Shown piece by piece: positions 13,690 through 63,438 of a DNA stretch of 64,000 nt. The stretch's first letter is position 1; every line of letters starts with the position of its first letter. Origin of the DNA: an uncultured Gammaproteobacteria bacterium (GTDB taxonomy: Bacteria; Pseudomonadota; Gammaproteobacteria; HK1). The translations under genes and the position numbers were made by a program. Where the stretch lies: the NCBI GenBank assembly GCA_958295465.1, contig OY282353.1, positions 4,207,001 to 4,271,000 of the forward strand, in the 5' to 3' direction. Under the pieces are notes generated by a model that was not told the origin of the DNA, searched no databases, and saw only the letters and a list, made by a program, of their open reading frames with translations.

Positions 13690-14421
13690 TCAGAAGTTCC
13701 GGATCAGGAAATTGCGCACTTGCGGAGGAAAGAGGTCGTAGAGCGCCCCGGGCGGCATGCGCACCTCCAGGCCGGTCTTGAAGACGAGCACGATCCCGAT
13801 GCCCAGCCCCGCCAGCAGGCCCAGGCCGGAGGGGGAGCGGATGCCGGTCCGCAGCCCCAGCAGCGGCATGAAGACCGCCGTCGAGAGCAGATACCCGAGC
13901 CACGGTATCGAGGCGGCGTAGGCGACGAAGTACAGGGCGAACTCCAGCGGGCGCAGCCAGCGCAGCAGCTCGCCGGCCGGCAGCAACGAGGTGTCGAGAT
14001 GGTCCGGGCGCCCCCCGGCCAGCGGCGACCGCTGGCGCGGTCGCCTGGCGATTCCGCTACGCGGACTCGCGGGCGTCCCGGCCAGCGACGTAGACGGGCG
14101 TGGTCGCCTCCCAGCCGACGCCGCAGATGGGCGAGGAACGGTCCTGTTCCATGCGAGCCAGCTTTGCATCAGGTGGAGACCGGAGAAGAGCGTGAACGCG
14201 CCGAGGACGACCGCGGGCCAGAAGCGGGGCTGCAACGGCAGATCGACCCGGTCGAACCACCGGGTCTCGGCCGGGAGCCGGCTCAGCAGGAACAGGGCGA
14301 GGACGAACAGGAGGCCCGCGAAGAAGAGGTCTCCGGGGCGGCGCCGAACGGCGAACAGCTCCGGCGCCGGCACCGCGCCGGCTTCGGTGTCGGCGCCGGA
14401 ATTGCCGTCGTCCTGCCGCAT
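13690..14421 (-). CDS. Tripartite tricarboxylate transporter small membrane subunit (TctB family) with an inserted repeat
   Basis: A 243-residue protein with hydrophobic segments near 33-47, 66-84 and in the C-terminal third (YFVAYAASIPWLGYLLSTAVF). TctB proteins are usually about 150-180 residues. The excess is a charged Arg/Pro/Ser-rich loop at about 88-140, most of it (about 88-134) encoded by the dispersed repeat at 14021-14159, which keeps the frame open. The loop lies between membrane segments, so function may survive. The ATG at 14421 is chosen because homology begins after it; the frame is open to 14640. Ends 16 bases before tctA-like. Confidence 0.75.
   Translation of the reverse strand: MRQDDGNSGADTEAGAVPAPELFAVRRRPGDLFFAGLLFVLALFLLSRLPAETRWFDRVDLPLQPRFWPAVVLGAFTLFSGLHLMQSWLAWNRTVPRPSAASAGRRPRPSTSLAGTPASPRSGIARRPRQRSPLAGGRPDHLDTSLLPAGELLRWLRPLEFALYFVAYAASIPWLGYLLSTAVFMPLLGLRTGIRSPSGLGLLAGLGIGIVLVFKTGLEVRMPPGALYDLFPPQVRNFLIRNF
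14021..14159 (-). repeat. Dispersed palindromic repeat, copy A, inside tctB-like gene
   Basis: One end carries the hairpin GCGACCGC-TGGC-GCGGTCGC (from 14025), the other end reads GTTCCATGCGAGCC on the plus strand. A second copy of the same design, about 109 bp, lies at 63299-63407 in inverse orientation. The copies share about 75-80% by eye over the common part; copy A has about 30 extra internal bases. It sits in frame inside a coding gene. Confidence 0.75.
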
Positions 14422-14698
14422 GGCGTCACCCGCTCCGCAAGCGAAGATACGAACGTCTCGCGGGCGAAACGCCCGCGGCGGCGCGACGATCCAGCCACAT
14501 GAAAAGCGACCGACGTTACTCGGCAGTTGGCCGGGGCGCGGCAAGATCGCGAGTTCGGCCTTTACCGAAGACTGCTCATCCTGTTCGTGTTCGAGCCAAG
14601 CGCGCAGGAGGATGACTTCGACGAGAAAACAGAACGGCACATCGCGTCAGCGAGAGCCGCACCGGGGCGACGCTGACGAACACCCCGCCGGGCGCCGA
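14422..14698. other. Short gene-free stretch between tctB-like gene and higA
   Basis: 277 bases with no credible gene. This is where the HigBA pair, together with its flanks, has separated tctC-like from tctA/B-like genes. Confidence 0.4.
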
Positions 14699-63298: not shown

Positions 63299-63407
63299 GG
63301 CTCGAATGGAACAAAACCGTTGTTCTCCCCTCATCCGCTGCGCTGGTTGGGGCGCCTGCGATTCCGCACAGCGAAATCGCCAAGCGACCGCGCCAGCGGT
63401 CGCCGCT
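63299..63407 (+). repeat. Dispersed palindromic repeat, copy B
   Basis: Same design as 14021-14159, in the opposite orientation: GGCTCGAATGGAAC at the left end, the hairpin GCGACCGC-GCCA-GCGGTCGC at the right end. Length 109 bp. It lies between the AAA ATPase and DUF4276 genes. Confidence 0.75.
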
Positions 63408-63438
63408 CGAAGGGAACAGGCAGGGGAGGAGCCCTGCA

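Follow-up and report, generated by a model that had tools for sequence, protein, structure and literature searches.

The window analysed in this work is a stretch of 64,000 nucleotides from the chromosome of an uncultured gammaproteobacterium (a single contig of 5,675,689 bases, referred to here as the host genome), and it carries two copies of a small palindromic repeat. Copy 1 is located at positions 14023-14157 on the plus strand (135 bp, or 45 codons; nhmmer profile E 2e-19), inside an open reading frame at 13690-14640 on the minus strand, which Pfam assigns to a TctB-like transporter subunit and which has its probable start at an ATG near 14421. The repeat is antisense to this gene, the plus strand reading ...WNRTVPRPSAASAGRRPRPSTSLAGTPASPRSGIARRPRQRSPLA, and it is open in the frame of the gene, in agreement with the initial annotation, which had described a stop-free repeat at 14021-14159, a range that adds a few flanking bases to the exact element. 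Copy 2 is located at 63301-63405 on the minus strand (105 bp; profile E 6e-26), between two genes of the same strand and with the target TTCGAG at 63406-63411; the initial annotation had placed it correctly between genes, at 63299-63407.

With the insert in place, only residues 160-223 of the TctB-like protein match the Pfam TctB model (PF07331), at profile positions 71-137, and leaving the insert out yields one continuous match over profile positions 4-137, which is near full length. The loop is foreign to the TctB family, because the match grows in this way upon its removal. The expectation that the loop would be missing elsewhere is borne out by the family profile, which closes without it, and the orthologue of the sister genome does carry the loop. 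This sister genome, OY282378.1, belongs to an uncultured member of Gammaproteobacteria of the same genus and has 5,732,555 bases; its TctB orthologue has the element at the same place as a 102-bp copy, and the two copies differ by 33 bases, exactly 11 codons, with the frame kept. No recognisable TctB orthologue was found in other members of the family by the search made, and the TctB site is compared within the sister pair.

The mobile repeat unit is usually 102 bp long, which corresponds to 34 codons, and has three hairpins. Its boundaries, CGGCGACCGC...GTTCCATGCGAG, and its ends, CGGCGACC...CATGCGAG, are fixed because four loci are empty in the sister genome, and a profile built from the genome copies has the 108-position consensus GCGAGCGGCGACCGCTGGCGCGGTCGCTTGGCGATTCCGCTGCGCGGAATCGCGGGCGCCCCGGCCAGCGCCGCGGACGGGCGGGGAACGGTTTTGTTCCATGCGAGC. 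Copy 1 consists of the 102-bp unit and a 33-bp in-frame internal extension. Its 3' end had been proposed as GTTCCATnCGAGCC, which is right up to GCGAG, the final CC being host DNA. Hairpin 1 (GCGACCGC-TGGC-GCGGTCGC, 14025-14044, plus strand) adjoins the left end of copy 1 and is followed by hairpin 2 (GGCGATTCCGC...GCGGACTCGC, 14047-14071, plus strand). Among 44 copies, hairpin 1 has 8 pairs, with 96.9% of the cells paired and three pairs changed on both sides, hairpin 2 has 10 pairs, with 93.6% of the cells paired, and compensatory changes affect four pairs of the two together. Hairpin 3 (GGAAC...GTTCC, 14137-14151, plus strand), which is near the right end and imperfect in copy 1, is weaker than the other two, helices 3 and 4 being paired in 80-88% of the cells in these 44 copies. 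The right terminal motif GCGAG (14153-14157, plus strand) is identical to the preferred target according to tallies of flanks and ends in 86-89 copies. A recurrent 72-bp variant of the repeat (for example at L100, L101, L104, and L184) has no hairpin 2, and its length is often a multiple of three as well.

The repeat occurs about 140 times in the host chromosome. Further copies, which the initial annotation proposed to seek in the whole genome, are numerous: the hairpin 1 pattern has 122 matches genome-wide against 1 and 2, or 3 in all, in a reversed-pattern control, and in the searched part of the host genome the profile detects 138 copies distributed over 100 sites, a site count in which both window sites are counted again in the loci that overlap the window. 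The sister genome yields 125 copies, spread over 106 sites, in the fifth of its chromosome that was profiled, which is a lower bound. Three other congeners have no copy, and six copies are present in a genome from a different genus of the same family. An exact 33-base pattern matches only OY282378.1 among 84,980 species genomes, a set that may lack close records, and plasmid and phage collections gave no convincing copy, the best being a Nonomuraea record with 53% coverage, 81% identity, and E 0.002. The host and sister chromosomes are about 96% identical in shared stretches and heavily rearranged, and several repeat sites match the sister on one flank only, as at breakpoints.

The flanks of the repeat sites of the host genome were searched in the sister genome for empty sites, and four loci are empty there (a slash marks the point of insertion): L164, GTTTTGAG/GCGC, in a gene read as cobalamin-reductase-like; L097, CTGTGA/, where the host genome has a three-copy array before biotin carboxylase; L110, GCTGCGAG/CGTG, in a Fic gene with two empty paralogues; and L106, GCAAG/CTCGC, in a Rossmann epimerase. 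The Fic gene is the clearest of them, with ...MAALEAAS/VRQEIGPF without the element and ...MAALEAAS[34 aa]VRREIGPF with it. An apparent empty site at L178 looks like a decayed copy and is not counted, and L092 and L099 align to the sister on one flank only.

The unit inserts directly 3' of a [T/G]GCGAG-like target, without target-site duplication. Among 86 isolated copies, most have [T/G]G[C/T]GAG in the six positions immediately 5' of the unit, the flank in this position of copy 1 being GGCCAG (14017-14022, plus strand; consensus [T/G]GCGAG), and the 3' flank of these copies is nearly free, with little beyond a C at +1. The 3' end of the element itself copies the target motif. Target and 3'-end tetramers are uncorrelated (145 matches against 145.5 after shuffling, P 0.61), which argues against a target-site duplication, and at L164 the empty site is TGAG but the element ends in CAAG.

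Exact 102-base head-to-tail arrays are present, and their copy number differs between the sister genomes at the same sites. Two processes would account for these arrays: a new insertion behind a copy already in place, whose own 3' end is the target, or slippage from one GCGAG repeat to another. At L103 and L155 the tandem unit includes neighbouring host sequence, therefore local tandem duplication also happens.

In-frame residence was accepted when both flanks have coding potential in the same frame and no stop occurs through the element. There are 43 such sites in the two genomes, which correspond to at least 31 distinct genes once shared sites are merged. The genes stay open upon insertion, since a unit adds 34 whole codons and usually has no stop. 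Most of the host genes scanned have Pfam support, and they encode two amidases, PepN, FolC, a multihaem cytochrome, SNF2 helicases, two hydantoinase A proteins, XdhC, an indolepyruvate oxidoreductase, an AMP-binding (Acs-like) ligase, UvrA, oligopeptidase B, and an epimerase, as well as RecD, HsdR, GlnD, imelysin, and a radical-SAM CofGH-like protein in the sister genome. The Fic insertion was confirmed separately, and two in-frame candidates, L115 and L141, have no Pfam match. Residues 19-216 and 280-704 of the Acs-like ligase align to 3-200 and 204-628 of 5gxd, a structure homologue without the insert, whose alignment reaches both margins of the 65-residue insert of the ligase; the alignment of oligopeptidase B has a gap at the element, and that of the amidase stops before the element and resumes after it. 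Judging from sequence, the proteins with inserts are presumably made and work.

The UvrA copy is in frame at L126:2001-2085, near position 2,455,963 of the host genome. An SNF2-type helicase gene at L183 (5,402,245-5,407,717 of the host genome) has three separate in-frame insertions, two of them partial, which are common to the sister genome. At L097:1995-2308 and L096:1995-2104 copies sit exactly at the stop-start junction of two genes, where the downstream gene may obtain a new start codon from the element.

Lengths divisible by three are found in 25 of 26 in-gene copies and in 76 of 103 copies elsewhere (P 0.015). For 15 shared insertions in 13 genes, dN/dS is 0.29 in the host parts and 0.69 in the inserts, at equal dS (Fisher P 0.001; three host segments overlap at L183, and P is 0.002 after two of them are dropped). 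The host parts are under purifying selection and the inserted peptides are relaxed. The reading frames occur as the codon phases of the target would predict, save one sense frame that is in excess. The repeat consensus is open in all six frames, but no selection for this openness is claimed, since 36% of dinucleotide shuffles are equally open.

The repeat is likely to be a miniature, non-autonomous mobile element, about 102 bp long and containing three hairpins, which recognizes a [T/G]GCGAG-like target, is most likely moved by single-strand cut-and-join, keeps the frame in genes, and evolves nearly freely afterwards. Insertion beside the target would most probably proceed through an HUH/Y1 enzyme in an IS200/IS605-like manner, a route to which the layout points, the target lying beside the left end and its motif recurring at the right end. 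Landing in a gene would add a peptide of roughly 34 residues rather than destroy the gene, and copies in tolerant places would be kept and then evolve nearly freely, the rest being mostly intergenic. IS608 and ISDra2 have subterminal hairpins, a target that flanks the left end, and a right end similar to the target. The element is comparable to IS200/IS605-derived MITEs in having subterminal hairpins at both ends, the target at the left end, no target duplication, and a right end that resembles the target, but no parent element was found here and a guide-target pairing shows no covariation (P 0.80). This pairing is suggestive, as the CTTG before hairpin 2 can pair with CGAG, CAAG, or TGAG. The sole Y1 transposase of the host genome is IS200-type and its surroundings have no element ends, so that no transposase with matching ends was found in this genome. 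Candidate pairs for an autonomous long version between split ends were listed and none was chosen; the 1.2-kb LE/RE pair found in L183 is contained in a single helicase gene and is read as separate insertions. No replication-strand bias is readable, as the GC skew is too weak.

Movement of the same selfish in-frame element by a different enzyme is rather unlikely. The candidates would be a bridge-RNA recombinase of the IS110 type, a rolling-circle transposase of the IS91 type, and a DDE transposase that strictly requires CGAG and duplicates 4 bp. IS110 transposases are present in the host genome, in the sister genome (G002), and in a further genome (G005), but no element-like ends were found near those IS110 and Y1 genes that were inspected. 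The reverse complement of the target, CTCG/CTTG, resembles IS91 targets, but no IS91 transposase was found in a search made without positive control. CGAG at both ends is readable as a 4-bp duplication in some copies; however, a DDE transposase with target-site duplication is rejected, as the end motifs do not correlate and the empty site at L164 differs from the element end. The unit has neither this duplication nor terminal inverted repeats, unlike classical DDE-type MITEs.

A functional RNA or DNA module kept by selection, such as a terminator, an mRNA stabiliser, or a nucleoid binding site, whose presence in genes would be incidental, is improbable. The strong conserved hairpins with some compensatory changes are compatible with it, as is the location of most copies outside confirmed genes, mainly in intergenic regions. 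Against such a module, the insertions in genes occur in either orientation, the tandem arrays vary in copy number between the sister species, the repeat is absent in the three congeners, and Rfam has no credible match near copy 1.

Recruitment of the repeat by selection for linkers or new protein surfaces is very improbable. The dN/dS of the inserts is below 1 in total, but the hairpin constraint on the DNA could alone lower it, and the dN of the inserts is 2.5 times that of the host parts at equal dS. The frame in excess, ASGDRWRGRLAIP..., is over-represented relative to the target phase (P 0.0002); against adaptive peptides, the host genes are unrelated to each other, internal indels accumulate while the frame is kept, and in-gene copies are strongly depleted, being 31 of about 168 sites against 67% of the target motifs in coding DNA. 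Chance similarity or an assembly artefact is already refuted, since the two separate assemblies share many repeat sites with flanks about 96% identical and the match counts are about 40 times those of the control.

Several families of small bacterial repeats resemble the element in part. MIRU repeats of mycobacteria are small, dispersed or tandem, and sometimes located at stop-start junctions of operon genes, as are the copies at L097 and L096. RU/ERIC repeats of enterobacteria are also small and dispersed or tandem, and RU repeats are described as forming reading frames inside genes (PMC2759123). Both differ from the element in sequence, which is unrelated as far as known, and here many copies are deep within enzyme domains. 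Hairpin repeats with GTAG and CGTC tags are the subject of a 2013 survey, according to which some are intragenic, uvrA included, and CGTC repeats have no dedicated transposase (PMC3733652). The element shares with these REP/REPIN (RAYT) repeats the hairpins, a conserved tetranucleotide at the foot, and some intragenic copies, that in UvrA being a parallel to the intragenic repeats reported in uvrA of other bacteria. However, its tag is GCGAG, neither GTAG nor CGTC, it is a 102-bp three-hairpin unit of single orientation and not a 20-40 bp single or inverted pair, and no RAYT with matching ends was found here.

The closest behaviour is that of Rickettsia palindromic elements (RPEs), which are palindromic repeats in frame in many unrelated genes and between genes (PMC10969869, PMC3733652), end in CGTC in R. 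conorii (PMC3733652), and stand out for the unusual frequency of their in-frame fusions according to a 2024 review (PMC10969869). The element is likewise a palindromic repeat, falls into the size class of about 100-150 bp, and is scattered over the genome in numerous copies, in frame in many unrelated protein genes and also between genes. It differs from RPEs, which are compared by description, in its ends CGGCGACC and GCGAG, without CGTC tag, in its lineage, and in its three separate hairpins, defined target, empty sites, and exact boundaries. It is set apart as a new variant because ends and target differ. The likeness is thus one of behaviour, and the element is regarded as an analogue rather than a member of the family. 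The proposal of the initial annotation, a selfish RPE-like palindromic repeat tolerated in proteins, is supported by a copy number above 120, by clean empty sites, by in-frame residence in 31 distinct genes, and by relaxed selection on the inserts.

It is possible, though doubtful, that the element represents a single-strand system independent of Rickettsia, with a known target pentamer, which seeds frame-keeping 34-residue peptides across the proteome. Its right end would recreate its own target, therefore head-to-tail arrays would be possible, also inside proteins. The question of how palindromic repeats come to reside in proteins has been discussed chiefly for Rickettsia, in which neither the moving enzyme nor the exact ends are clear. 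The pair of sister genomes gives exact boundaries, a target motif, and empty sites, and selection on hosts and inserts is measured separately. The element can thus serve to examine whether proteins gain something new from small mobile repeats or simply tolerate them.
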